Shown here piece by piece: positions 1,622-26,861 of a DNA stretch of 30,792 bases. Position numbers and translations under genes: made by a program. The stretch's first letter is position 1; the number at the start of each line of letters is the position of its first letter. Under the pieces are notes generated by a model. It saw only the letters and a program-made list of their open reading frames with translations, was not told the DNA's origin and did no database searches. Source of the stretch: a virus; IMG/VR virus record IMGVR_UViG_3300030102_005027, positions 37,838 through 68,629 of that record; one strand, 5' to 3'.

Positions 1622-4600
1622 ATGTCATCATACACTCCTAAATATTCCAGTACAGGCAAGGCGTTTGGCAACAAGGGGACCGGTAAACTTAGTGATAAAG
1701 CTGGGAAGTCTAAGTCTCAACGTACGACTATTGCTTCAAGGTTCCAAGAGCAGACTAAGGCTGTAGCTAACGCACACAGGTTCTTCATCATCCACGGTAC
1801 TAACGCCAACACTATACAAGTGTGGGGTGGTAACAAGCTGTGGCTTGGACACGCAGCTGGTAATGGTGCTCAATTGCCCAGACACGCTAGAGTTACAGCC
1901 ATTGCTATGCTTGGGCCTAGAGGAGGACAAAAGCTTTCAGGTGACCTAAGTCAGGCTAACTTCTTCCCGTATGGGAACGTAGGAAATACAGATATAGAAG
2001 TAGGGTCAGTTGATCTAGCCGGTCAAAACGATCTTCCAGGAATAACACACGCCGTTGCCGCTGGGTTAGATGGGGCATATTCAACTGGAGGTGGACCAGG
2101 ATTCGCAAATGGTGGAGGATTTTGTAGAATAGCATGCGGCCATGAACCTACTATAGATGGACAATCTAGTAATGCTGTAGTAGAAGCTACACTCGTCAAG
2201 AGACTAGCGGGAGGTAACATCTTAATAGAGATGATGATCAACCGGGCTAAAGTGCTCGATTTGTTCAATTCCAACGTCCCCAACCTATCGGGCATAGCAC
2301 CCAAAAACTACCTTGGAACAGGTGGTTCAGGAGACGCTTTTTGGGAAGCTCCGTTACTATGTGAGGTAGAAGTCATATTTGACGACGGAGAAATAAGAAC
2401 TGTAGACATCATACTGCCCGGGGGAGATCAACCCCAAGGGCAGGGCAGCACTATGCAACCAGGAGGGGGTGATATATATAGCGGTCTGCCTTCAGGTGTA
2501 CTTGGGCTCACAACTCCTCCTAGCACACCTATGAACAAGGGACTATTCCCCTCGTTCGGGTTTAACCTTGCAAATGGCAATAATGCTGATGCTGCTGGGA
2601 TAGTGGGAGATGATACTGGACTTAGCAGTCAGTTAAGTGCTGAAAATATGTTTGGCACATGGGATAGGCGTTGGCACAACAAATGGCCAATGGAGGCAAA
2701 CAGTATACTATCTTACTCTAGTACAAGTAAAGCCACTCAAAACCCTGGAGGAATAGGCAAGTGGATGCTGGGCAGATTTGGTTTCTATGAAGGCCAATCT
2801 ATGTTCGTGAACGACGGGTTTCGGATGAAATCAAGGCAGGGGGCTTCTGGTTCTATGCTTGTTGTATTCGCATCTAAGAACGGAGAAGGAGGAGGCTACA
2901 CTACAAACAGAGGAGCTGTTGATTGGCCACAAATGGCTGTATGGTCTAACTACGCCGACGTAAACAATGGACACCTTTGTCCAAGGCATAGTGTAAACGA
3001 CCAAGGAAATACAGCAAAAACCTACGATGGGGCAACAGCATTTGACCTGCTGTCAATCACACAAAACCAAGGATGGGCTACATCATTCATGCTATCAGTA
3101 TTTCCAGGCACATTGATACCTACTACCTGGGATACTAAAGATAGCAGCTTCAGTCTTGTAGATTACTATGATCAGATAAAGGCTGCAGAGGGAGACTTCG
3201 TATCAACTGATGTTCTGGAGTTTTCAGGGTTCTTGGTGAACATATGTCCCCAGAACATGCTGCACCCTGCCATGTTCATACAGGATTACTTCAGCTCAGC
3301 GCTTCATCTGGGAAATGCAAACCTACACAATCAGAGGGATGGAGACGACAGCCCAGTAATATGTACGTCTGACTACAGAACTTTCCTAGGAGCTAATAAC
3401 ACAACAACTAACCCAGGTGTTAATCCTAACGCTCAACCTATTAGAGATAATGCTAGACTGACTGCGTTTTGGTGGGCGAGATCAGGAGAATGGTATGCAG
3501 GCAGTGAGGAGGATACCTGGTTTAACACAGGTGGAGATTCTCAGGATCTTGTTGGACCTACAGCAATTCCTATAAGACAAAACCTTTTCCACTATCTCAA
3601 TACGTACATAAGTAACTACGACTTAGAGGTAACAGTAAACAACGACGGTGAGCAGAATGGAGGTGATGGGATTGTAGAGTTTAACAAGGAAGCCACTATG
3701 TGCAACTATGGGAACCAAGCTCAGAAAGCAGATGCCCACCAATGGAATGAGTTCGCAACCCACCTTGGTATAGGATCAGGCTATCAGTTTACAAACTGGC
3801 ACATCTACATAGAAGATCCCAGACATGATGAACTCATACTTGGTACAGACTACCTAGAGAGTGATCGTGGCATACTTGATCCTTACGCAACCAACTATGC
3901 TTCTTCAAAGAAGATAAACTTCGTATTAGACACAGATACTCAACCTGACTACTCCCCACATACGTCTGGTGACTTCAGTGGTATGAACAGACTGCCTTGG
4001 AATACAAACTTGTTCCTTGGATGGGATGGAAATTACCAACTTAAAGCAGACACTCGACCAGGTGGTACGTATGACAGCAACAACGAGATAGGTGCAGCCA
4101 TCTATGAGTTTGGGTTTAAAAATACTACGACTGGAGCTACATCTAATGCTGCAGAAGATATACTGCATAAGCAGTACACCCTCAACAACTCAAACCCCTA
4201 CCCAGTAGAGGGCAGTAACAAGGGTATACTATCACAGAACGGAGGCAGCATAACACTTGGAGGAAATACCACTACAGACCTAGACTTTAAACTAGGCAGT
4301 AACTTCTCTACAGGAGCGGCTCCTGCCGAGATGGTATTGGCTAGGGTGCAGTATCTGCAATCTGATAACGCCCTCGTTCACAACCTTGACCTTGGGGAAG
4401 ACCCAGGTCTTGACGCGGCGTTTACAAAGACATCTGTGTTTGGTCTTACGTTTACCATAGGTACAGGTACAAACGTAGACTGGGATTTCACTACAGTGAT
4501 AAACGGCTCAACCGCTTCTACACCTGCAGCAACAGGATGTACAGATGCTACAGCAATAAACTATGACTCAAGTGCAACGGTAGATGACTCGACCTGCTTC

Positions 4601-7333
4601 TTCTGCGGAGATTCTTCTGATGAGCCTGACTCCGACAACATCTGGGCTGTAAGTCAGAGCACAACTTACTTTGCTCAGTTTGCAGAGGTTGTAACACAAA
4701 ACGCAGATGTAGTAGGACTTAACTGCTACGCAGTTACTACAGACAACACTGTAAGTGATCAGACTCACTTCTCATTTACGCACCAACCAAGTGGTAGCGT
4801 AAGCGAAGAGGCATTTTGGAAAAGATGGAATCAATTCGGAATTACGGTAACTGGAGGTGTGTATCAGCCCAGTGACGATGTGCAGCTAGGTAGATTGTAC
4901 TATGAGGGATCACAAGGAGAAAACGATCACAGTGAGGTAGGATCTCTTACACAAGTAGGAGCTGACGTACCAAACGTAGGAACAGATCGTAGCTGGTCAT
5001 TTGGACTAAGCCCTGGGGACAGAGCACTTATAGCCGGTAACCAATATCTGTTCAAGCTCACACTGACAATCAACGCTAACTGTAAGATACACGTCTACAC
5101 CAAGTTCTTTGTTGAGTACTGTCAGTGTACAGACGAACAAGCCAACAACTTTTTTCCGTACCCAGCCATTCTTGATCTCACAACATGTGCCAACGTTCTT
5201 TCGTCAAGAGCAAAGACAAACAGGAACAATGCTGTTGACCTGGATCAAATACGAGAAGCTTTATGCAGCTACGCTCTGTACGATACCTCCTGCGATAACA
5301 GGTTTACTGTAACAGCACAGCCTCCTGTAGTATCAGAGTCCTCAACTGCAGGTATTTGTAAGGTAGAATACACATGGACAGTAAGTCCTTACATACTAGG
5401 GTATGAGAACGATACCCCAATCTATCTCCCCATGCATACTGCTAGTTCAGATTACTATGCTACTGGGGCACCAATAGGTGGTTTCAGCTTCGACGTGGCA
5501 GATTTTTGCGATGCTATCGTCAATGCTGGGGGCACAATAATAAATAGCCCAACACAGCATTGGGGAGTAAACGTAGGAGATGGTGTGGGACTGAATCTTA
5601 ATTCAGGAGGACCCCCGGCTATATACAACAACTATAGAAATCTCAGCACAAGCAGCTATATAGCCAACTCAAATCTTGAGGATGAATTTGGAACTGATAT
5701 GACTGGACAGTCATTCAACTACCACATATCAGTTCTCTGGAATGGAGATCCGATAACAGTGCAGAATGAGATAAGAGTTAAGTACGTAACCTACAGTGGT
5801 GACTTACCTCCTCAAGTTCCACAAGGGTTTGTAGCAGATTGCTGGGTTGAATCAGTAGGAACTGGATCATTCCCACCAGCTGCTCAATGTGACCCATGCA
5901 GCTTCCTGCCAACATGTCTGTTGCCAGGCTGTACAGATGATACAGCTCTGAACTACGACGCTGATGCGGGAATACCAGACGGCTCTTGCATATACTGCCC
6001 GGATGAGCAAACAGAGGTAACAGAGATTACTCTAGCACAAGAAAGCACTACAACGCTTACATGTGATGGAGATAATCTACCTACTGTAGACAGCTCTAGT
6101 GGTTCCCTTGTGAGTACAGTAACAATTCCTAATGGAACAACTCAAAGACTTGGGTTTGTACTTATGAATACCAACAGTCCTACGATAAGCTACATAGAAA
6201 GTATATGGAATCAGATGCAGCCTGCACTGGTTACTGCATTCAGCAATGCGAGTCTTGAGGCATATATAACTACAGACTTTGGTGGGGTATTCATCAAGGA
6301 GTTTACCGGAACAGGACTACCGCAAGATGTAAACAACTTCCAAGAAACATTCTTAGGAGGTCTTCCAGCAGGAGGCTACACAATCGCAGTAACTACAGAC
6401 ATAGTAGATACAGATCTGTGGGACAATTGTAAAGATCAATTTACACGTCCACCGTTCATAGCTTCAGCAACCATATCAGCTACAGAAACTTCTTGTCAAA
6501 TCCCAGGATGTACAGATCCTAATGCGGATAACTACAATGAAAGTGCAACCGTAGATGATGGATCATGTACTTACCCAGACCCACCTATACAAGGGTGTAC
6601 AGATACAGAAGCTGTAAACTACAACTCGGATGCAGAGGTAGACGACGGGTCGTGCCTTTACGATTCTGACGACGGAGTCATTATAGGCAACGAGTTTGTA
6701 TTTGACTGCGTGCCTACAACGGTGCAGAACAACCAACCATTCGAAGCATTCATGAACTTTGCTTCTGGATGTGTAAGCGAAGAAGGCAATGTACTGATGG
6801 CTAAGATCAAGACAGGAGTGCAGTGCTCAAGAGAAGACAACATCAAGATCTCTTTGATCACGTACTTGCTGAACAGAGTGGGGCTGCCTTGCATCTACAA
6901 CTGCAATGACGATTACCCAAAGGCATTCGGAGCCTTGGTCAACTGCGTAGACAACTGGAAGAGAGGAAGCCGTAATGGTAAGAAGCTAGTCTTCACACCA
7001 GCTAACAACTACCAAGTAGGAGATGTAGTAGCTGTAAGCGCACTAGACCACGGCACAATATCCACAGAATATTACGTAGCTGTAAAAGACTACATAGCAG
7101 GCTCACCCCCACCTAGATACAAGAACTCTGGATGGAAGAAGTGCTTGAACACAACAACAAACTCAGGTGACGAAAACTACCTGGAGACCTTCATATCGTT
7201 CATGTCAGATAAATGTACTATCTGCTCAGTACCCCCAACACAGGCCAACAGACAATACTCAGAGCCTAAGGCGGGTGAGGGAAGAACAATAGACGGCTTT
7301 GACTTGAACGGACAACAATTCATAATAGACTAA
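1622..7333 (+). CDS. Giant Cys-repeat virion-module protein (1903 aa)
   Basis: I do not recognise a named family over most of this protein. It begins with a short basic, Gly/Ser/Lys-rich segment (residues 1-45) and has no signal peptide. A long Asn/Gly/Asp-rich, apparently globular region follows (about 50-960). Four copies of the Cys repeat G-C-T-D-x-x-A-x-N-Y-x(8)-D-G/S-S/T-C lie at about residues 972, 1436, 1629 and 1658, separated by long Cys-containing domains. The C-terminal 200 residues form another Cys-rich domain ending in DLNGQQFIID. The gene sits between the putative capsid protein and a fibre-like gene and overlaps the latter by one base (TAATG). A head or tail appendage or adhesin is the most likely role. 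The same repeat occurs in the exported protein at 12692-14890. Confidence 0.8.
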   Translation: MSSYTPKYSSTGKAFGNKGTGKLSDKAGKSKSQRTTIASRFQEQTKAVANAHRFFIIHGTNANTIQVWGGNKLWLGHAAGNGAQLPRHARVTAIAMLGPRGGQKLSGDLSQANFFPYGNVGNTDIEVGSVDLAGQNDLPGITHAVAAGLDGAYSTGGGPGFANGGGFCRIACGHEPTIDGQSSNAVVEATLVKRLAGGNILIEMMINRAKVLDLFNSNVPNLSGIAPKNYLGTGGSGDAFWEAPLLCEVEVIFDDGEIRTVDIILPGGDQPQGQGSTMQPGGGDIYSGLPSGVLGLTTPPSTPMNKGLFPSFGFNLANGNNADAAGIVGDDTGLSSQLSAENMFGTWDRRWHNKWPMEANSILSYSSTSKATQNPGGIGKWMLGRFGFYEGQSMFVNDGFRMKSRQGASGSMLVVFASKNGEGGGYTTNRGAVDWPQMAVWSNYADVNNGHLCPRHSVNDQGNTAKTYDGATAFDLLSITQNQGWATSFMLSVFPGTLIPTTWDTKDSSFSLVDYYDQIKAAEGDFVSTDVLEFSGFLVNICPQNMLHPAMFIQDYFSSALHLGNANLHNQRDGDDSPVICTSDYRTFLGANNTTTNPGVNPNAQPIRDNARLTAFWWARSGEWYAGSEEDTWFNTGGDSQDLVGPTAIPIRQNLFHYLNTYISNYDLEVTVNNDGEQNGGDGIVEFNKEATMCNYGNQAQKADAHQWNEFATHLGIGSGYQFTNWHIYIEDPRHDELILGTDYLESDRGILDPYATNYASSKKINFVLDTDTQPDYSPHTSGDFSGMNRLPWNTNLFLGWDGNYQLKADTRPGGTYDSNNEIGAAIYEFGFKNTTTGATSNAAEDILHKQYTLNNSNPYPVEGSNKGILSQNGGSITLGGNTTTDLDFKLGSNFSTGAAPAEMVLARVQYLQSDNALVHNLDLGEDPGLDAAFTKTSVFGLTFTIGTGTNVDWDFTTVINGSTASTPAATGCTDATAINYDSSATVDDSTCFFCGDSSDEPDSDNIWAVSQSTTYFAQFAEVVTQNADVVGLNCYAVTTDNTVSDQTHFSFTHQPSGSVSEEAFWKRWNQFGITVTGGVYQPSDDVQLGRLYYEGSQGENDHSEVGSLTQVGADVPNVGTDRSWSFGLSPGDRALIAGNQYLFKLTLTINANCKIHVYTKFFVEYCQCTDEQANNFFPYPAILDLTTCANVLSSRAKTNRNNAVDLDQIREALCSYALYDTSCDNRFTVTAQPPVVSESSTAGICKVEYTWTVSPYILGYENDTPIYLPMHTASSDYYATGAPIGGFSFDVADFCDAIVNAGGTIINSPTQHWGVNVGDGVGLNLNSGGPPAIYNNYRNLSTSSYIANSNLEDEFGTDMTGQSFNYHISVLWNGDPITVQNEIRVKYVTYSGDLPPQVPQGFVADCWVESVGTGSFPPAAQCDPCSFLPTCLLPGCTDDTALNYDADAGIPDGSCIYCPDEQTEVTEITLAQESTTTLTCDGDNLPTVDSSSGSLVSTVTIPNGTTQRLGFVLMNTNSPTISYIESIWNQMQPALVTAFSNASLEAYITTDFGGVFIKEFTGTGLPQDVNNFQETFLGGLPAGGYTIAVTTDIVDTDLWDNCKDQFTRPPFIASATISATETSCQIPGCTDPNADNYNESATVDDGSCTYPDPPIQGCTDTEAVNYNSDAEVDDGSCLYDSDDGVIIGNEFVFDCVPTTVQNNQPFEAFMNFASGCVSEEGNVLMAKIKTGVQCSREDNIKISLITYLLNRVGLPCIYNCNDDYPKAFGALVNCVDNWKRGSRNGKKLVFTPANNYQVGDVVAVSALDHGTISTEYYVAVKDYIAGSPPPRYKNSGWKKCLNTTTNSGDENYLETFISFMSDKCTICSVPPTQANRQYSEPKAGEGRTIDGFDLNGQQFIID
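4535..6660 (+). repeat. Four GCTD-NY-DGSC Cys repeats in the giant protein
   Basis: Repeat units start at 4535, 5927, 6506 and 6593, each about 22-24 codons, with consensus G-C-T-D-x-x-A-x-N-Y-(N/D)-x-x-A-x-(V/I)-x-D-(G/S)-(S/T)-C. The last two are nearly adjacent; the others are spaced by hundreds of residues. This repeat is familiar from secreted, cell-surface proteins of marine Bacteroidota, where the two cysteines probably form a disulfide. Confidence 0.9.
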
Positions 7334-9478: not shown

Positions 9479-9871
9479 ATGGCTGCTATTACCACTAGAA
9501 TAAGCGTAAGCGGTAGAGGTATCACTGCAGATAGATTGGCTTCCAATTGTTCCTTCACCGTAATAGCTGAAAGCATATTGGAGAGAGGCACTAAGGTGAT
9601 TACAAGCACTGACACAGCTTCTCCTAATATGATTGCTGACGCTGCAGATTTTGGTGGTGCAAACAATAGGGCGCTCGTCTATCTCAAAAACACTTCTACA
9701 ACGAAGGATCAGTACGTATACATCCACTTGGGTGGTACTAGAATCTTTAAGCTCAATACAGGAGAAGCAACAATCTTCCCATGGGAGGCTGACGCTAACA
9801 CCGATGATATCGAAGCACACGCTACGACTAACACGAACACAATTGAGTACACCATCGTAAACATTAAGTGA
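9479..9871 (+). CDS. Small beta-rich structural protein
   Basis: This 130-residue Thr/Ala/Ile-rich protein has alternating hydrophobic strands (for example RALVYLKNTSTTKDQYVYIHLG at 62-83) and no signal peptide or membrane segment. Its composition and size fit a capsid decoration or other small virion protein. The stop codon overlaps the following holin start (TGATG). I do not recognise a family, so the structural role is inferred from context. Confidence 0.7.
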   Translation: MAAITTRISVSGRGITADRLASNCSFTVIAESILERGTKVITSTDTASPNMIADAADFGGANNRALVYLKNTSTTKDQYVYIHLGGTRIFKLNTGEATIFPWEADANTDDIEAHATTNTNTIEYTIVNIK

Positions 9872-10305
9872 TGGGTAAGAAGAAGATAAGAGATACCGGC
9901 CTTGGCAAGTGGTTAGCGGAGAAGGCACCTAATGTATTGAATACTGTAGGTGACCTGCTCCCTGACCAAGGCGCCCTTGGAGTAGTCAAGAACCTCTTAG
10001 ACAAAGAGCCAGGAGTTGACCCAGCCGAGGCCCAGGCCAAAATAGATGCTGAGATTCAGTTTCAGAACAACGTTACTGAGCGTTGGAAGGCAGACATGGG
10101 CAGTGACGTAAAGCTTGCAAAGCTGATCAGACCTGTCACACTCATCTCACTGATGGTGATGTTCTGCCTCACAATGATCTTTGACAGCCTTGACAACTGG
10201 CCCTTCAACGTGAAGGACAGCTACATAGATCTGTTGCAGATTCTCATGCTCACAGCATTTGGTGCATACTTCGCAGGTAGAACTATAGAGAAATCTAGGA
10301 AGTGA
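9871..10305 (+). CDS. Holin of the GTA/3TM type
   Basis: This 144-residue protein has an N-terminal amphipathic region, then the pattern ERWKAD-x3-D-x2-LAKLIRPVTL (70-91), characteristic of the phage 3TM/GTA holin family. Two clear membrane helices follow at about 87-105 and 119-137, and it ends in a basic tail. Holins form lesions in the inner membrane that trigger lysis. I chose the ATG at 9871, which overlaps the previous stop as TGATG, over the GTG one codon upstream. No endolysin is recognisable nearby, so the murein hydrolase must be elsewhere or be an unrecognised protein. Confidence 0.8.
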   Translation: MGKKKIRDTGLGKWLAEKAPNVLNTVGDLLPDQGALGVVKNLLDKEPGVDPAEAQAKIDAEIQFQNNVTERWKADMGSDVKLAKLIRPVTLISLMVMFCLTMIFDSLDNWPFNVKDSYIDLLQILMLTAFGAYFAGRTIEKSRK

Positions 10306-12416: not shown

Positions 12417-12692
12417 ATGGCTAAGTCACCGGCATGGCAAAGGAAAGCAGGTAAGAATCCTGCAGGAGGTCTTAATGCAAAGGGACGTGCGTCTTACAGA
12501 CGTGCAAACCCTGGCAGTAAGCTCGCTGCGCCTGTGACAGAATCAAACCCCAAGGGTAAGAGAGCTGGTAGACGTAAATCATTCTGCTCACGTATGTGTG
12601 GGATGAAGCGTAGCAGAACAGGGGCCAAGGGCAAAAGAGATCCTAATTCAAGAATCAACAAGGCGCTCAGACGCTGGAGATGCAGATGCTAA
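12417..12692 (+). CDS. Small Arg/Lys-rich protein, DUF6321-like
   Basis: This 91-residue, very basic protein begins SPAWQRKAGKNPAGGLNAKGRASYRR and contains RRKSFCSRMCGMK at about 53-65. This pattern is found in a small family (resembling DUF6321) encoded by large viruses and phages. The four cysteines (CSRMC and CRC at the end) could bind a metal. High positive charge and lack of a membrane segment suggest nucleic-acid binding or packaging in the virion, by inference. It overlaps the next gene by one base when that gene starts at 12692. Confidence 0.72.
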   Translation: MAKSPAWQRKAGKNPAGGLNAKGRASYRRANPGSKLAAPVTESNPKGKRAGRRKSFCSRMCGMKRSRTGAKGKRDPNSRINKALRRWRCRC

Positions 12693-12745
12693 TGAGAAAC
12701 TTCTTAACCATATTATTGTTTGCTGCGGCAAACATTCTTAACGCT
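12692..12745 (+). other. Predicted signal peptide region of the T9SS protein
   Basis: The encoded 18 residues have a short basic start (MRN), a hydrophobic core (FLTILLFAAANIL) and likely signal peptidase I cleavage after L-N-A, leaving Gln first. The A/Q boundary is characteristic of exported Bacteroidota proteins. Confidence 0.8.
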
Positions 12746-14890
12746 CAAGGTAGTTGGGTGGATGTCCAGATTCAGACAGACCAGTACGCTGGTGAAAGTT
12801 CCTGGGAGATCCTCAACGAAGATGACCAAGTTGTAGCCGTTAGTCCCCCGCTTCAAGACAACACCTTACAGAATATGATGGTGCTCTTGCCGGCAGGGGA
12901 TTACGAGTTTGTAATGATGGACGCATTCGGAGACGGTATCTGCTGTGGATTCGGGGAAGGTTGGTATAGACTGAGCAATAGCTGTGGACTAGACACTGCA
13001 GTGTATGACTTCGATACCGCTCTAGATACAATAGCCTTTACGTTGAACCCTTGTATACTACCACTACCAGGATGCACAGACGAATCGTCAAATAACTACA
13101 ACCCCTGGGCTAACATAGACAACGGTACATGCAATGTGAGTGAGTGCCCAGAAGATCAGACTCTTGTGTCAATGGCGTTGACGCTAGACACATGGCCCAA
13201 CGAAACTGGGTTCACACTAGTAGACTTGGCTGTTGGTCAGTTCTATGAGCAGGTGCTGCCTGGGGAGTTTGATTTTGGAGATCAGCTTGTAACCTACAAC
13301 TACGACTTCTGTGTAAGCCTAGGCTTTGAGTTGATACTAGTGGACGTCTTTGGAGATGGACTCAATGGGTCTGCAAGCGGAGGTCAAGACGGAGCATGTG
13401 TTATCACAGCGTGTGATAGTATCATCTGGGAGCTAGAAGATATAGCCTTCACCACATTCGACGATGGGAACACAGTGTACTCTGGTCCAATATTTACTGA
13501 GCCATGCGAACCAGAACCTGACGTAGTTGGATGTATGGATGACGATTACGTTGACTACAACCCAGAGGCTACAGCTCCAGGACCATGTGAGACCTTGCAC
13601 ACGTGGGGATGTACAAACCCTGAAGCTTTGAACTACGATAGCTTGGCTACTATATCAGACAACAACAGCCCATGCACATTGCAGATCGTACTAGAAGACG
13701 ATGCTGGTGATGGCTGGGGTAACTCTACCATAGGTATGGTACAAGGTGAGCAGCAGTGGTTGTTCACAGTAGGACCAGGAGAGTTCTCTCAATCTTGGGA
13801 CTTGGTTCTAGATTCTGACGAGGAGGTAGACGTATACTACTTCCAAGCTGGTAACCAACAGCAGTCTTCTCAGGAACTCGCTTTCCAAACACTGCACAAC
13901 TCTGTGCACGTTATAAACGAAGCTGGAGACACTTTGATGTCTGAAGGAAGCAACCCATTCATAAACAACGGGCAAGGTGCACTACAACCATTCACTGCTC
14001 CTAACTGGACAGTCTACAGCTTCACACCTTACTGTGGAGACACCTGCATCCCATACGTCTACGGCTGTACTGATGAGACAGCATGTAACTATGACGAGGA
14101 AGCTAACACTCCAGATGAGTGCAACTACCCAGTTCAGTACTACGACTGTGATAACTTCTGCATAAATGACACAGATGGAGACGGGGTATGTGATGAGCTC
14201 GAGGTTGTAGGATGTCAAGACCCAACTGCATTTAACTATAACGAAGCAGCTACGGATGCAGGTGAGTGTGTGCCTGTAGTATTCGGCTGCACTGACGCAA
14301 CACAATATAACTATGATCCGGAGGCTAACACTGAAAACGGTAGCTGTATTCCTTACCTGTATGGTTGCACTGATCCTCTTGCCCTTAATTATGATGAGGA
14401 TGCTAATACTGACAACGGTTCGTGTATTGAGGTGGTTGAAGGGTGTGCAGATCCGGAAGCTTATAACTACGACGAGTCAGTTAATGTGGGAGACAGTAGT
14501 GCTTGTCTTTACGACGCTGGCTGTATTGGCGGTCCTGGCGAGCCTTATTGGCTCAATAATGAGTGTTATGCCTGGGTGATTACTGTAGACCCCTACTGCT
14601 GTCAAACAGAGTGGGATGAGGTTTGCATTGAGCAATACCAGTACTGCGGCAATCAGGTATCGTCTATAGACATAGCTGTTGCATCTCTGCTACACTTCTA
14701 CCCCAACCCAACAGCAGGTGAGGTACGAATTCAGGCACCGATAGGTACAGCGATAACAGTAGTAGATGCCTCAGGCAGAGAGATAGCTTCTGGCTCCCTT
14801 AGTCGTGTAGAGCTCCCATCTCCAGGTCCATATGTAATCATGGCCAACTACAAGGGTAGAATCAAGAGAGAAATAATCGTAAGACAATGA
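12692..14890 (+). CDS. T9SS-exported Cys-repeat surface protein
   Basis: The mature protein is built for export by the Bacteroidota type IX secretion system. From the chosen ATG at 12692 (732 aa) it begins MRNFLTILLFAAANILNAQG, a typical Sec signal peptide. Three domains carrying D-x-(F/A)-GDG motifs follow (DAFGDGICC, DVFGDGLNG, DDAGDGWGN), then eight GCTD-type Cys repeats. A Ca-loop-like DTDGDGVCDELE lies among the repeats. Next come a CC-x-TEWDEVC Cys motif and a C-terminal type A sorting domain (FYPNPTAGEVRI ... GPYVIMANYKG ... EIIVRQ). ATGs at 12680 and 12686 are possible, and a GGAG precedes 12686. I prefer 12692 because it gives the TAATG junction seen at many other boundaries. It overlaps the barrel gene by 4 bases (ATGA). 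A phage-encoded T9SS substrate is unusual. Confidence 0.88.
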   Translation: MRNFLTILLFAAANILNAQGSWVDVQIQTDQYAGESSWEILNEDDQVVAVSPPLQDNTLQNMMVLLPAGDYEFVMMDAFGDGICCGFGEGWYRLSNSCGLDTAVYDFDTALDTIAFTLNPCILPLPGCTDESSNNYNPWANIDNGTCNVSECPEDQTLVSMALTLDTWPNETGFTLVDLAVGQFYEQVLPGEFDFGDQLVTYNYDFCVSLGFELILVDVFGDGLNGSASGGQDGACVITACDSIIWELEDIAFTTFDDGNTVYSGPIFTEPCEPEPDVVGCMDDDYVDYNPEATAPGPCETLHTWGCTNPEALNYDSLATISDNNSPCTLQIVLEDDAGDGWGNSTIGMVQGEQQWLFTVGPGEFSQSWDLVLDSDEEVDVYYFQAGNQQQSSQELAFQTLHNSVHVINEAGDTLMSEGSNPFINNGQGALQPFTAPNWTVYSFTPYCGDTCIPYVYGCTDETACNYDEEANTPDECNYPVQYYDCDNFCINDTDGDGVCDELEVVGCQDPTAFNYNEAATDAGECVPVVFGCTDATQYNYDPEANTENGSCIPYLYGCTDPLALNYDEDANTDNGSCIEVVEGCADPEAYNYDESVNVGDSSACLYDAGCIGGPGEPYWLNNECYAWVITVDPYCCQTEWDEVCIEQYQYCGNQVSSIDIAVASLLHFYPNPTAGEVRIQAPIGTAITVVDASGREIASGSLSRVELPSPGPYVIMANYKGRIKREIIVRQ
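13070..14509 (+). repeat. Eight GCTD-NY Cys repeats in the T9SS protein
   Basis: Units start near 13070, 13529, 13607, 14063, 14210, 14285, 14363 and 14441; the last five lie within about 450 bases. Consensus is G-C-(T/Q/A)-D-x-x-A-x-N-Y-(D/N)-x-x-A-(N/T)-x-x-(N/D)-(G/A)-x-C. Some copies diverge (GCMDDDYVDYN; GCTNPEALNYD). The family is the same as in the giant protein at 1622-7333. Confidence 0.9.
14687..14887 (+). other. Type A T9SS C-terminal sorting domain
   Basis: About 67 residues at the extreme C-terminus show the conserved order: LLHFYPNPTAGEVRI, then a hydrophobic strand with ITVVDASGREI, then SRVELPSPGPYVIMA, and finally KREIIVRQ. In host proteins this domain is recognised by the T9SS, removed at the surface, and the protein is either anchored to lipopolysaccharide or released. 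The match covers the whole expected domain and ends exactly at the stop codon. Confidence 0.9.
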
Positions 14891-15933
14891 AGAGGCTAAT
14901 AACCGCGATACTGATTATACTCCCCAGCGTAGCACTGGGTCAAAGTGACTTCTACAAGAACGTGCTCAGAAGAGCCACATTCTACGGAGCAGTCAACGGT
15001 GGTAACTCTGTATCAGACAGAGATGTATTCTCTGTAGCTACAGGAGGACTGACTACAGATATAGTAGAGACACCGTTTGACTACAGCTTGACTCTAGGTG
15101 TACGTAAGATTGCACGCTTTGGTTACGAGAACAGAGCCAACATCTTCTACGACGGAACAGAAAAGACGTATGGAGATGCAGCAACACTGGGTAGGTACGA
15201 TGGCTTTGAGTTCCTCGCTGAGGCTGACTGGAGAAGACAGCAAGGCAAGAACTTCTTGGACCAAGACTACTTCGTCAGGTATGTAGCTGACAAGTGGATT
15301 GTAAAAGCAGAATGGCTGCAGGACGGCTTTGCAGATGTCAAATACTTCGAGGCATCACAAAGAGGTAGACTGAACATAGGAAAGAAGCTGTCATTCAATG
15401 CAGGTATTGTACAGCGCATCTCAGAGCCATACGGATATGACCCACTACAAGAGTGGTTGCTGGACAACAACCAGATCCACTACACATCTCTTGCATTACA
15501 AGAAGGATACAACATAGATGTAGCTACTGGAGAGTTCTTCAACCCTGAAGGAGAACTTGTAGCAAACGACCCAGCAGTGTGGGAGCAGGTAGTCATACCT
15601 CAGGTACTCAATGACTACGTAGCTGCGAAAAGAGCTGAGCTCACCAACCAATGGGTTTACTCAGCAGTGATAGGATTTGACTTCTACCACTACAAGAAAG
15701 ATTTCTGGATACACTCATGGGGCAACTTGATGCCCTACCACCTGAACACAGGAGGTGAGTATTCGTATCACAACTTCGTGAACAGCAGCCAGTGGGTAGA
15801 CATTGGGGCTGGACTCGTGTTTGGAACCAAGCTAACAAAAAGCCTTGGCGTGTTCGCTGAAGGCAAATACAACAGATACTGGAACAGGGAGTGGCATGAC
15901 TTCTCGATCGGTATCAACTACATACTACTGTAA
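14887..15933 (+). CDS. Predicted outer-membrane beta-barrel protein
   Basis: This 348-residue protein starts MKRLITAILIILPSVALGQS, a clear signal peptide with likely cleavage after A-L-G. The rest is a succession of alternating polar/hydrophobic strands rich in Tyr, Trp and Phe (for example YDGFEFLAEADWRR, KWIVKAEWLQDG, WVDIGAGLVFG) and ends HDFSIGINYILL, a terminal-strand pattern, although with Leu rather than the usual Phe. A long polar insertion around residues 185-250 could be an extracellular loop or periplasmic segment. The 4-base ATGA overlap with the T9SS substrate implies coupled synthesis and possibly joint function at the cell surface. It could be a receptor-masking, exclusion or anchoring protein; none is proven. 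Confidence 0.75.
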   Translation: MKRLITAILIILPSVALGQSDFYKNVLRRATFYGAVNGGNSVSDRDVFSVATGGLTTDIVETPFDYSLTLGVRKIARFGYENRANIFYDGTEKTYGDAATLGRYDGFEFLAEADWRRQQGKNFLDQDYFVRYVADKWIVKAEWLQDGFADVKYFEASQRGRLNIGKKLSFNAGIVQRISEPYGYDPLQEWLLDNNQIHYTSLALQEGYNIDVATGEFFNPEGELVANDPAVWEQVVIPQVLNDYVAAKRAELTNQWVYSAVIGFDFYHYKKDFWIHSWGNLMPYHLNTGGEYSYHNFVNSSQWVDIGAGLVFGTKLTKSLGVFAEGKYNRYWNREWHDFSIGINYILL

Positions 15934-16217
15934 TGGCACAAAAGATAAGCGAGGATACACAGGTAACTCTAGACCTGAAAACAATTGGAATGGCAACAGC
16001 TGGACTTGGGGCACTGATCAGTATGTGGTTTGTGCTGCAAGCTGACATTGCCGAAGCGAAGGAGCTGCCCTTGCCGCCTGACCCTGAAATCACACGCATG
16101 GAGTTTGATATGAAAGATCAGCTTGTGCGTCAAACAATTATGACTACGCAAGAAGATGTCACCGAGATCAAGGAGGACATGAAGCGTATAGAAGAAAAAA
16201 TAGATCAACTAAAATGA
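15933..16217 (+). CDS. Membrane-anchored coiled-coil protein
   Basis: This 94-residue protein has one membrane helix at about 17-37 (KTIGMATAGLGALISMWFVL), a Pro-rich linker (ELPLPPDPE) and a C-terminal coiled coil (EDVTEIKEDMKRIEEKIDQL). The start forms TAATG with the barrel stop. The layout resembles holin accessory proteins or the inner-membrane partner of a spanin pair, but no obvious outer-membrane lipoprotein partner is visible. I cannot separate those options from a simple membrane scaffold. Confidence 0.7.
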   Translation: MAQKISEDTQVTLDLKTIGMATAGLGALISMWFVLQADIAEAKELPLPPDPEITRMEFDMKDQLVRQTIMTTQEDVTEIKEDMKRIEEKIDQLK

Positions 16218-16220
16218 GAC

Positions 16221-16589
16221 ATGAAAACTGTAACGTTCTTTGCGTCCTGTCTTGCATTGTCACTGGTTCTTGCATCCACGACAACGACTGAGACAGCGCC
16301 AGAAATATCCGACGTAGGTATCTGTGTAGTTGAGTTCAACGCAGCGTTTAACTCAGCTAACTCTGTCCCATGGGTAGAGAATATAAGCGACTGCGAACAC
16401 CAACGCATAGATATTGCAGCACAGCCTGAGATGCAGAAGAAACACAAGATCGTGGTAGTACCAACGATCATTGTCTTCAACGATGGAGAAGAAGACTCAC
16501 GATTCCAGGCAAACATTATGATGCAGATGGAGGCCACAGAAGATGAGGTCCAAGAAGCTGTAGACGAAATTATTTTGAACTCTTTCTAA
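16221..16589 (+). CDS. Exported thioredoxin-fold protein lacking CxxC
   Basis: This 122-residue protein has an N-terminal signal peptide (MKTVTFFASCLALSLVLAST, cleavage near 18-20) and a thioredoxin-like pattern: strand ICVVEFNAAF (34-43), a helix, strand QRIDI (61-65), then KIVVVPTIIVFNDGEE (76-91), where P81 occupies the conserved cis-proline site. The redox CxxC expected after VVEF is absent; the place reads NAAFNSANSVPW. Remaining cysteines (C35, C58) are far apart in sequence. It is therefore more likely a binding or structural thioredoxin-fold protein, probably periplasmic, than a classical reductase. A lipoprotein reading at C10 seems unlikely because the preceding segment is too short. 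Confidence 0.7.
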   Translation: MKTVTFFASCLALSLVLASTTTTETAPEISDVGICVVEFNAAFNSANSVPWVENISDCEHQRIDIAAQPEMQKKHKIVVVPTIIVFNDGEEDSRFQANIMMQMEATEDEVQEAVDEIILNSF

Positions 16590-24141: not shown

Positions 24142-26861
24142 TGGCCGATAAGAAATTCATAAAGGATGCGATAAAAAGACCGGGAGCCTTCAAAGCTAAA
24201 GCTGAGTCTAGAGGAATGACTACTGAGGAGTTCCGCAAGAGAGTGCTGGCCAACCCTGGCAACTACGATGCACGCACAGTAAGACAAGCTCAGCTAGCCA
24301 AGACACTTGGTAAGCTTAGAGCACAGAGCGGTGTCGACCCATACAGTGCTCTCCCTACGTCATCAAATACGATGACCTCCCCAATCCTTGATCCACAAGA
24401 AGCTGCAGAACAGACTGCAGAAATACAAAAACAGCAACAACAAGTAGTTCAAAATAGAGCTGAAGCTGAAGCTGAAAGGGAAAGACTCAACAATGCAGCT
24501 GCAGACGCCACCATACGGAGTGGTATGCAAGACCTGCAAGGAGCAGGAGGGGATAAGGTAAGAACCTCTATCCAAGCAGGTAGGGCTGCAAGAGATGCAT
24601 CTATTACACAAGCATACGGCACGGATGATCTAGCCTCTCTTGGTGTAGACGCCTCGGCTAGAATTGCAGGTAAGATTGCACAGGGTACAGCTACTAGCGC
24701 TCAAGTAGCAAAAGCTAGTGGTGATACCGGGGCACTACTCACTAACCTCGGTGCATATGGACAAGGAGCTGGAGCTGCTGCAGATGCTGGACAAGCCGCT
24801 GCTGGTGTAAGCTCAAGTGCAATAGCAGGTCCTGCTGCAATAGCATCCATCGGAGGTAAGATAATTGAGGGTACAGCAGCAACCTCTAGAGGTGAAGACG
24901 CAGCTGCTGAATACAGCTTTCAGGAAGGTCTGGGTAGTGGCTTGAAAGCTGCTGGTACTGGGGCAGGCACCGGTGCTATGATAGGTAGCATCTTCGGACC
25001 TGTGGGCACACTTGTAGGAGGTGCTGCTGGAGCTCTTGTAGGCCTAGGTGTAGAAGCATTTAGAGATGTCAGAGAGGTAAGACGAGGTAGAAGGGAACGA
25101 GCTGGGAGACAATTCAGAGAAGGCATGGAAGACAGGCGTCTTAGCAGAGCTGCTACTGATGTACGTAACCAGTCTTACATGGTTAGCGGTTCTAATAGAG
25201 GTTACAACCCCAACTACCTCGGTAATATAGAAGAGGGGATCACATATATGCACGGAGGAATGAAAGTACCAGGTGGTAAGGTAATGCCCATGAGAGATGG
25301 GGGTAAGCAGTACATAGGTAGAAAGCACAGCAAGGGCGGTATTGACCTTGGAGATGTTGAAGTCGAAGGCGGTGAAACGTCTAGACCCATCATGAACTCA
25401 CAGGGTAAGACTGTAGACTACATCTTCAGTGAGTTCCAGAAGCTCAAGCCTGAGTATGCTGAGCAGCTTGGTGTCAAAGAAGGCTCGTCTTATGCTGATG
25501 TGCACAAGATGATGGAGCGAGGTGCTATAGCTAAAGACTACAGAGGTCTTGCTAAGATGCAAGAGCAGCACATGAAAGAGAAGGGTAAAACAGAGACAGG
25601 TCCTCGTGGTCCTGAACTGATTGCACAGAATGCTCTGTCACCCATGATGACCACTGCAGTAACAGAACCTGCACTCAATACCCCGCTCACTGTCCCAACA
25701 GTAGCTGACCCTACTATGCTGTTCAATCAGCAGTTCCCTGCTGGTATGCCTTTCGCTGCACAGGCTGGACCTAGAGCTGTAGAACAGCCAGAGATGCCAG
25801 AGCTTAATAGACCAGTAATGACTCGTCAGGGTATGCCACTCAGCACTATGATAGCTATGGGAGGTAAGGCACCTGAGCCCAAAGCTCCTATCGGCCCTAC
25901 TATGCCCGAAGAGTACGTAAGACTCCAAGGCATACAAGAAATCCCCCTGAAGGAAGAAGAAGACATCCCACTGGACTTTGAGCAGTTTAGCGATACGTAC
26001 CCCAACATGGATAATAAAGAGCAAGCGTATGCGAACTACGTGAATGCTATGGAAGAACAGGGTAAGACTAGGAAGAAAAAAGAGAAGAAGACTAAGACTA
26101 AGAAAGAGAAGGACACTGCCGATACCAAAAACTTCGAGGCTGGACCTGAGGCAGCTCTGCAACTTATCCCACCACTGGCAGGTGTGTTTACATCTATGAG
26201 ACAGAGGGATAGAGCTGCAGGACTTGAGGCTAAGGGTACACCTACCGTAGCTAGAACACGTAGAATACGTCCTAGGTTGATAAACAGAAACGCAGACAGA
26301 GCTGCAGCTAGAGAGAACCAGCTGAACACCAACGCAGCTATCGAAGCTTCAGGGTTGAGCGCTGATCAGAAGAGAGTACTGCGAGCTAGATCTACTAATC
26401 AATTCAACCAAGCTAATGCTAAGATCAGTGCGGCTGAAGACAATGCTAACCAACAGATTATTGCCAGAGCAGATCAGCTTAACCAAAGAGCAGATCAGGT
26501 AGATGCACAGCTCAATTTGAGAAATGCTACACAGCAGCAGATGCTGAACCTGAGAAACAAACTCATTAAGAACCAAGCTCTTACAAATGCTGACGAGCAA
26601 CTGCTTGCATCACTTGACGCAGGGTTTGGTAGATTTGCAGGAGCTGTCGGAGATAAGAGACAGTATGATGCTACCAAGCTTATGGCAGATGCTGTTGCTT
26701 CTGGTACAGAGAACGCCAGTGGTTTGAATGCACTCGAGAGATACCTTGTATCTCAGGGCATGATGACACAAGAGCAGATCGATGAAGCAAAGGAGAACAA
26801 AGCTAAGTCTGGTGGATATATAAGACGGTCTAACAAGATCAGAAGAAAGAAGAAGAAGTAA
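24141..26861 (+). CDS. Internal virion/cargo-type protein with glycine zipper
   Basis: This 906-residue protein opens with FIKDAIKRPGAFKAKAESRGMTTEEF ... NYDARTVRQAQLAKTL, a domain recurring in virion proteins of phages and large viruses. Then come a Gln/Glu coiled coil (about 85-125) and a Gly/Ala-rich glycine-zipper membrane-like segment (about 269-308), followed by a basic stretch. The motif HGGMKVPGG ... KHSKGGIDL ... VEVEGGE spans 370-415, and I recall similar HSKGG/EVEGGE segments in crAss-like cargo proteins. A Lys-rich patch lies near 640-655, then long amphipathic helices, ending in RRKKKK. It is likely packaged in the capsid and ejected with DNA, perhaps inserting in the host membrane. 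It overlaps both neighbours by one base (TAATG). Confidence 0.65.
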   Translation: MADKKFIKDAIKRPGAFKAKAESRGMTTEEFRKRVLANPGNYDARTVRQAQLAKTLGKLRAQSGVDPYSALPTSSNTMTSPILDPQEAAEQTAEIQKQQQQVVQNRAEAEAERERLNNAAADATIRSGMQDLQGAGGDKVRTSIQAGRAARDASITQAYGTDDLASLGVDASARIAGKIAQGTATSAQVAKASGDTGALLTNLGAYGQGAGAAADAGQAAAGVSSSAIAGPAAIASIGGKIIEGTAATSRGEDAAAEYSFQEGLGSGLKAAGTGAGTGAMIGSIFGPVGTLVGGAAGALVGLGVEAFRDVREVRRGRRERAGRQFREGMEDRRLSRAATDVRNQSYMVSGSNRGYNPNYLGNIEEGITYMHGGMKVPGGKVMPMRDGGKQYIGRKHSKGGIDLGDVEVEGGETSRPIMNSQGKTVDYIFSEFQKLKPEYAEQLGVKEGSSYADVHKMMERGAIAKDYRGLAKMQEQHMKEKGKTETGPRGPELIAQNALSPMMTTAVTEPALNTPLTVPTVADPTMLFNQQFPAGMPFAAQAGPRAVEQPEMPELNRPVMTRQGMPLSTMIAMGGKAPEPKAPIGPTMPEEYVRLQGIQEIPLKEEEDIPLDFEQFSDTYPNMDNKEQAYANYVNAMEEQGKTRKKKEKKTKTKKEKDTADTKNFEAGPEAALQLIPPLAGVFTSMRQRDRAAGLEAKGTPTVARTRRIRPRLINRNADRAAARENQLNTNAAIEASGLSADQKRVLRARSTNQFNQANAKISAAEDNANQQIIARADQLNQRADQVDAQLNLRNATQQQMLNLRNKLIKNQALTNADEQLLASLDAGFGRFAGAVGDKRQYDATKLMADAVASGTENASGLNALERYLVSQGMMTQEQIDEAKENKAKSGGYIRRSNKIRRKKKK

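Follow-up and report, generated by a model that had tools for sequence, protein, structure and literature searches.

A predicted type IX secretion cargo of a crAss-like phage is paired with a phage-specific predicted outer-membrane barrel in a cassette that moves between Bacteroidota phages

Why a phage late gene cluster should encode a protein tagged for type IX secretion (T9SS), and what such a protein might do at the surface of the infected cell, is the question raised by this locus. For marine Bacteroidota, hosts of crAss-like phages, the T9SS is a main route by which proteins are exported to the cell surface. The window, by which we mean the whole stretch of 30,792 nucleotides analysed here, corresponds to bases 37838-68629 of the IMG/VR record IMGVR_UViG_3300030102_005027, which is 68,629 bases long. 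The record contains a Crassvirales capsid gene (PF23898, E 1e-76), Ring_1, Ring_2 and Ring_3/4 genes, and genes for a family A polymerase and for a terminase that shares 40-43% identity with those of gut crAss-like phages. A crass-type major capsid, ring proteins and terminase are the markers of Crassvirales membership, and on its gene content the carrier is a relative of the crAss phages. Judged by its cousins it would be a marine one.

The gene at the centre of this study, gL, starts with an ATG at 12692 and ends with a TGA at 14888-14890 (Table 1). By inspection, its N-terminus, MRNFLTILLFAAANILNA^QGSW (MRNFLTILLFAAANILNAQ), is a classic Bacteroidota Sec signal peptide. All full-length orthologues have a hydrophobic leader ending before a Q, yet the leaders are only ~33% identical pairwise. 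The C-terminal ~66 residues (HFYPNPTAGEVRIQ...GPYVIMANYKGRIKREIIVRQ) are composed like a type A T9SS sorting domain. Both signals had been read from the letters alone in the initial annotation, with a search against TIGR04183 and PF18962 as the proposed check. This search gave an ambiguous answer for gL by itself, which scores 15.4 bits against TIGR04183 (E 0.013, cut-off 23) and 15.3 bits against PF18962 (E 0.025, cut-off 27), below the cut-off in both cases. The objection that the sorting domain is not significant is thus true of gL taken alone, but it is overturned by the relatives. Among the 37 orthologue-bearing viral records, TIGR04183 is matched at E <=0.001 in 31 and above its cut-off in 29, the best score being 53 bits. 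In addition, a profile of orthologue C-termini, built only from those less than 45% identical to that of the window, finds the gL sorting domain as its single match in the six-frame window (E 7.5e-12). An NCBIfam scan with E up to 1 returned TIGR04183 only, hence no type B domain on gL. These results confirm at the sequence level that gL combines an N-terminal Sec signal peptide with a type A sorting domain that runs to the stop codon. In three other loci (L049, L051 and L068, from records G025, G027 and G034), a second, shorter sorting-domain ORF of 412-474 aa lies close behind gL, making two T9SS-tagged proteins per phage.

The same annotation had described tightly coupled junctions within a phage tail module. 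The coupling is as described: gL starts within a TAATG overlap with the DUF6321 gene and shares an ATGA at 14887-14890 with the next gene, gM. The tail surroundings hold for the upstream side, where the CrAss_Ring_2 gene is found, while the downstream side consists of a cassette encoding the barrel gM, the small membrane protein gN and the thioredoxin-fold protein gO. It had also been considered that the contig might be a chimera of phage and host DNA at 12.7-14.9 kb. This is excluded, since the phage-gene/gL/gM junctions, or parts of them, recur in independent contigs (L036, L066, L115, L121 and L158). As for related phages, which the initial annotation had proposed to inspect, 82 stretches in IMG/VR encode gL relatives. 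Judged by these sequences, gL is a conserved phage gene and not host contamination. The matches of a promoter scan did not exceed chance. A small lipoprotein-like ORF (SLASCTKEQAIP; 16040-16513, minus strand, of stretch L002) lies in the minus-strand half of its record and is possibly a separate surface factor.

Table 1. Features of the gL locus, in window coordinates
Feature	Position	Strand	Basis
gG, holin-like; in many other phages the gene directly upstream of gL	9868..10305	+	phrog_3427, E 6e-22
crAss tail ring protein 2 (CrAss_Ring_2), upstream phage context	11728..12414	+	PF25702, E 4.4e-35
DUF6321 protein; overlaps the gL start by one base	12417..12692	+	PF19846, E 2e-19
gL, phage-encoded T9SS type A cargo, 732 aa	12692..14890	+	ORF, signals, relatives
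gL Sec signal peptide, residues 1-18, predicted cut before Q19	12692..12745	+	sequence
gL exchangeable exodomain, residues 20-450	12749..14041	+	AF2; divergence uncorrelated with gM; swapped between lineages
gL Cys-pair repeats, GCTDPxAxNYxxxA type, residues 451-610	14042..14521	+	also in host secreted proteins
gL membrane-proximal CCxxxWDxxC segment, residues 611-655; co-varies with gM	14522..14656	+	Spearman rho 0.71 with gM
gL type A T9SS C-terminal sorting domain, residues 667-732	14690..14887	+	TIGR04183, PF18962, orthologue profile
gM, phage-specific predicted outer-membrane beta-barrel with signal peptide, 348 aa, putative gL partner	14887..15933	+	AF2, PDB barrels, co-occurrence
gN, small membrane protein with coiled coil, conserved cassette	15933..16217	+	recurs in cassette loci
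gO, signal peptide and thioredoxin-like protein without CxxC, conserved cassette	16221..16589	+	sequence; recurs in cassette loci

Between its two export signals gL is modular and, over residues 20-655, very acidic (calculated charge about -113); the protein has 37 Cys. The exodomain is modelled as three beta-rich domains with GDG motifs and Cys motifs between them (AF2 mean pLDDT 65.5). Grouping at a 50% threshold gives seven exodomain classes, and several of these turn up in more than one gM clade; by sequence, the exodomain is thus exchanged in at least seven versions. Its fold is uncertain. The model gave weak structural matches only, the best being vCBM60, a Ca-dependent carbohydrate-binding module, which aligns with the first gL domain at 2.6 A over 87 residues with a Z of 7.5 that is within chance range. 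A segment in one exodomain class resembles, by eye, a CBM48-type domain. MAM is an adhesion domain best known from animals, and a gL counterpart in another crAss-like phage (L203, 2558-5923) has such a domain at its N-terminus (E 5e-20). The modules of gL occur piecemeal in Bacteroidota secreted proteins, while in the searches made the full-length form was found only in phage DNA.

The late protein gC (1903 aa, window 1622-7333) contains four GCTDPxAxNYxxxA...C repeats of the type seen in gL. We considered whether gL might act as a decoy of this virion protein. The case is weak, because host secreted proteins match the gL repeats better (50-60%) than gC does (about 48%), and it is further weakened by crAss-like relatives without gL or the cassette, which keep GCTDP repeat matches in the gC region.

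The neighbouring gene gM had received no attention in the initial annotation, nor had the swapped tips of gL or its spread across unrelated phages. The AlphaFold model of gM (pLDDT 73) is an outer-membrane beta-barrel with an uncertain strand count of 12-14. Its best PDB matches, with Z values of 12-13.6, are Tsx (Z 13.6), the EstA barrel, NanC and KdgM, and CymA is also among the best structural matches. FadL is found among the Foldseek barrel matches and is absent from the best 50 matches listed by a second aligner, with the strand count uncertain as stated. A Pfam search of gM returned sub-threshold matches only and a sequence search of the PDB returned no homologue. One trait of PorP/SprF proteins is shared by gM, namely that it is a predicted outer-membrane barrel encoded beside its cargo. 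Membership of that family is nevertheless unsupported, as none of 64 gM proteins matches PF11751 and comparison with the PorP/SprF profile by hhalign gives a probability of 15% over 24 columns. Of 395 Bacteroidota genomes, 394 lack the gene; the lone carrier is a phage contig, with the gene order gN-gO-gL-gM, binned with a Sphingobacteriales MAG. T9SS cargo genes are numerous in the remainder of that MAG, which fits a Bacteroidota host. Within the searches made, gM is phage-specific by sequence. Cultured phages gave no gM match in 50,697 phage records and, for gL, matches in only 5 records, over the repeats; a sorting domain was not found in six sequenced relatives.

The nature of these structural matches raises the possibility that the locus serves nutrient capture, with gL binding a surface glycan or polymer and gM acting as a substrate-specific channel, the two feeding the infected cell as a SusD/SusC-like pair. 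Tsx, NanC, KdgM and CymA are indeed specific channels, the first gL domain and the CBM48-like segment resemble carbohydrate-binding modules, and swapped tips would suit ligand specificity. However, the barrel matches of gM are generic, being tied with autotransporters and a phospholipase, and the vCBM60 score is one that chance can give. Moreover, the cassette contains no enzyme or transport genes, and its holin-like and small membrane-protein neighbours suggest late events. We therefore regard this explanation as unlikely.

The association of gL with gM is tight. Within the loci of 101 distinct gM genes, a sorting-domain ORF is present in 93, either within 1 kb upstream (83) or elsewhere (10). 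Six of the eight loci without one are cut by contig ends. In the remaining two (L209 and L224), neighbouring secreted proteins have short, unusual C-termini, and proteins of L194 and L200 end similarly (DLLGRPVNK...YMYDDGSVKRKIIIK); by eye, this ending resembles a variant sorting signal. The two genes also diverge together, in a way that depends on the part of gL considered. Over 79 gL-gM pairs, gM divergence shows no relation to the divergence of gL residues 1-450 (rho about 0-0.15), a slight one to that of the Cys repeats and a strong one to that of the last ~130 residues (~600-732; rho 0.6-0.7), with a sharp step near 590-610. Part of this correlation is physical linkage, as gM also tracks gO (rho 0.68), and the partial correlation between gM and the gL C-terminus given gN and gO is 0.5; the contigs behind it are, in addition, not independent. 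Linkage alone is argued against by loci with gL downstream of gM, in which the exodomain has been swapped, while gM and the more distant sorting domain have remained lineage-specific. For example, the exodomain of L032 is 95% identical to that of L022, while its gM is at most 66% identical to those of loci with the standard order. This reversed-order control consists mainly of one lineage plus L018. Taken together, the sequences support co-evolution of gM with the gL C-terminus without proving it.

These data also bear on a plainer reading of the locus, in which gL is an ordinary secreted adhesin derived from a host and gM a separate phage porin, the two being adjacent only by inheritance as a block. 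The piecemeal occurrence of gL modules among Bacteroidota secreted proteins would agree with such an origin, as would the co-inheritance of gN and gO. It is difficult to reconcile, however, with the presence of gM and a sorting-domain protein together in 93/101 loci despite changed gene order and intervening genes, or with a co-variation that ends sharply at the C-terminal module of gL. Plain cargo of this kind is, in our estimate, an improbable explanation.

The cassette comprises gN, gO and often the holin-family gene gG in addition to the gL-gM pair. In gO the CxxC motif is replaced by FNSAN (WNxxN in relatives); the protein has the look of a secreted thioredoxin fold, is probably redox-inactive and is conserved across phage lineages beside a cargo with 37 cysteines. 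Most crAss-like contigs found via the ring-2 gene have no cassette near that gene and only 4 of 13 large crAss-like contigs have gM anywhere, so the cassette is accessory. Further carriers come from other groups. One group has terminases scoring 570-695 bits against phrog_6681 (full-length cases) and no crAss capsid; the closest cultured relatives of one of them (G004) are the Flavobacterium elemo podophages. A third group consists of 114-120 kb phages with only a distant crAss capsid. Between the window phage and G004, G016 and G027, the terminases are 20-23% identical, while gL is 49-71% and gM 57-66% identical. With another phage of the non-crAss type, G021, the identities reach 84% for gM, 83% for gN, 81% for gG and 59% for gL. 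Across lineages gG is 76-81% identical and travels with the cassette. The well-supported branches of a gM tree require at least 4 changes between crAss-like and elemo-type carriers; the window gM itself groups with the latter (support 97/96). On this sequence evidence the cassette is an accessory unit moving between unrelated Bacteroidota phages.

The company of gG, directly upstream of gL in many phages, could suggest an aid to exit or dispersal at lysis. In such a scheme gL would coat virions, debris or outer membrane vesicles, and gM, along with gG and gN, would weaken the outer membrane. Every cassette gene does lie in a late module. On the other hand, export by the T9SS costs time and energy, which is odd for a lysis-stage factor, and no catalytic motif was recognised in gM. 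An N-acetylmuramoyl amidase-like ORF is located ~25 kb upstream of the cassette (L003 5177-5593, record 25177-25593), so the endolysin gene is apparently no neighbour of the holin-like gene. A role at lysis seems to us the least probable of the explanations considered.

We propose instead that gL is made late in infection, crosses the inner membrane by Sec and has its sorting domain recognised by the T9SS of the host. Given both signals and their conservation, it would finally be displayed at, or released from, the surface of the Bacteroidota host cell, as the initial annotation foresaw. That annotation had named receptor blocking, competition for the T9SS and aggregation as possible roles. 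The barrel gM would insert in the outer membrane, most likely as a dedicated partner or anchor keeping the C-terminal region of gL in place there, by analogy with SprF and SprB. The outer domains would be exchangeable recognition modules whose tips cover or occupy surface receptors or glycans, so that rival phages, or the progeny of the phage itself, could not adsorb to a cell already under infection. We give this model as a whole, that is a displayed T9SS cargo with a barrel partner, exchangeable tips blocking competing adsorption and a mobile cassette, a probability of about 55%. As to the end function taken singly, surface masking or superinfection exclusion is the role we favour, tentatively, because of the exchangeable recognition-like tips, the accessory and mobile nature of the cassette and its position in late modules. 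Type A sorting domains are normally cleaved. Moreover, type A cargo uses PorV (PMC12618676), while type B cargo is bound by its SprF/PorP barrel, as in the pairs SprB-SprF and PG1035-PorP (PMC9143113, PMC12618676). Cleavage and the use of PorV count against our model, as a private barrel should then be unneeded. The arrangement may represent either a private anchor for type A cargo or a barrel serving some other purpose next to an ordinary cargo. It is conceivable, though somewhat doubtful, that gM represents a new, phage-evolved class of outer-membrane partner, which would take type A cargo from the translocon and hold it at the surface. Phages would then exchange, as a cassette, an anchoring route of their own, related neither to PorV nor to PorP/SprF, for cargo with swappable recognition tips.

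Since the gL-gM pair recurs in dozens of phages from at least three lineages, these phages probably remodel the outside of the infected cell. Phage T9SS cargo as such is already known. T9SS-tagged ORFs near crAss-BACON ORFs were reported by de Jonge et al. 2019 (PMC6949934) and a T9SS-tagged Cryophage cargo by Bellas et al. 2020 (PMC7468147), and the latter already suggests superinfection exclusion. In the literature searched we found neither a phage barrel paired with T9SS cargo nor its exchange among crAss-like phages and others; both the barrel partner and the modular organisation appear to be undescribed there. If our reading is true, a conserved, mobile phage cassette using the T9SS would show phage remodelling of the host surface and would offer a route for phage control of re-adsorption.

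Several known systems invite comparison. Surface proteins that phages use for superinfection exclusion, such as T5 Llp, are small lipoproteins or membrane proteins. They resemble gL in being phage products placed at the surface of the infected cell, and we know of none that uses the T9SS. With T9SS type A cargo (TIGR04183/PF18962), gL has in common the Sec signal peptide, the C-terminal sorting domain and exodomain modules; it differs in being phage-encoded, in having a full-length form found only in the phage DNA searched and in being tied to a phage barrel gene. The Cryophage cargo and the ORFs adjacent to crAss-BACON are, like gL, phage-encoded, provided with type A domains and variable among related phages. 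They are, however, enzymes or BACON ORFs for which the accessible text of those reports describes no barrel partner, while the gL cassette is common to at least three phage lineages. The closest parallel in gene arrangement is provided by SprB-SprF and PG1035-PorP, where an adhesin gene likewise adjoins the gene of an outer-membrane barrel, there specific for the C-terminus of the cargo. In contrast to these pairs, the sorting domain of gL is of type A instead of type B, and neither Pfam nor profile comparison relates gM to PorP/SprF. Should the proposed partnership be true, gL-gM would be an independently evolved cargo/barrel pair for comparison with SprB/SprF.
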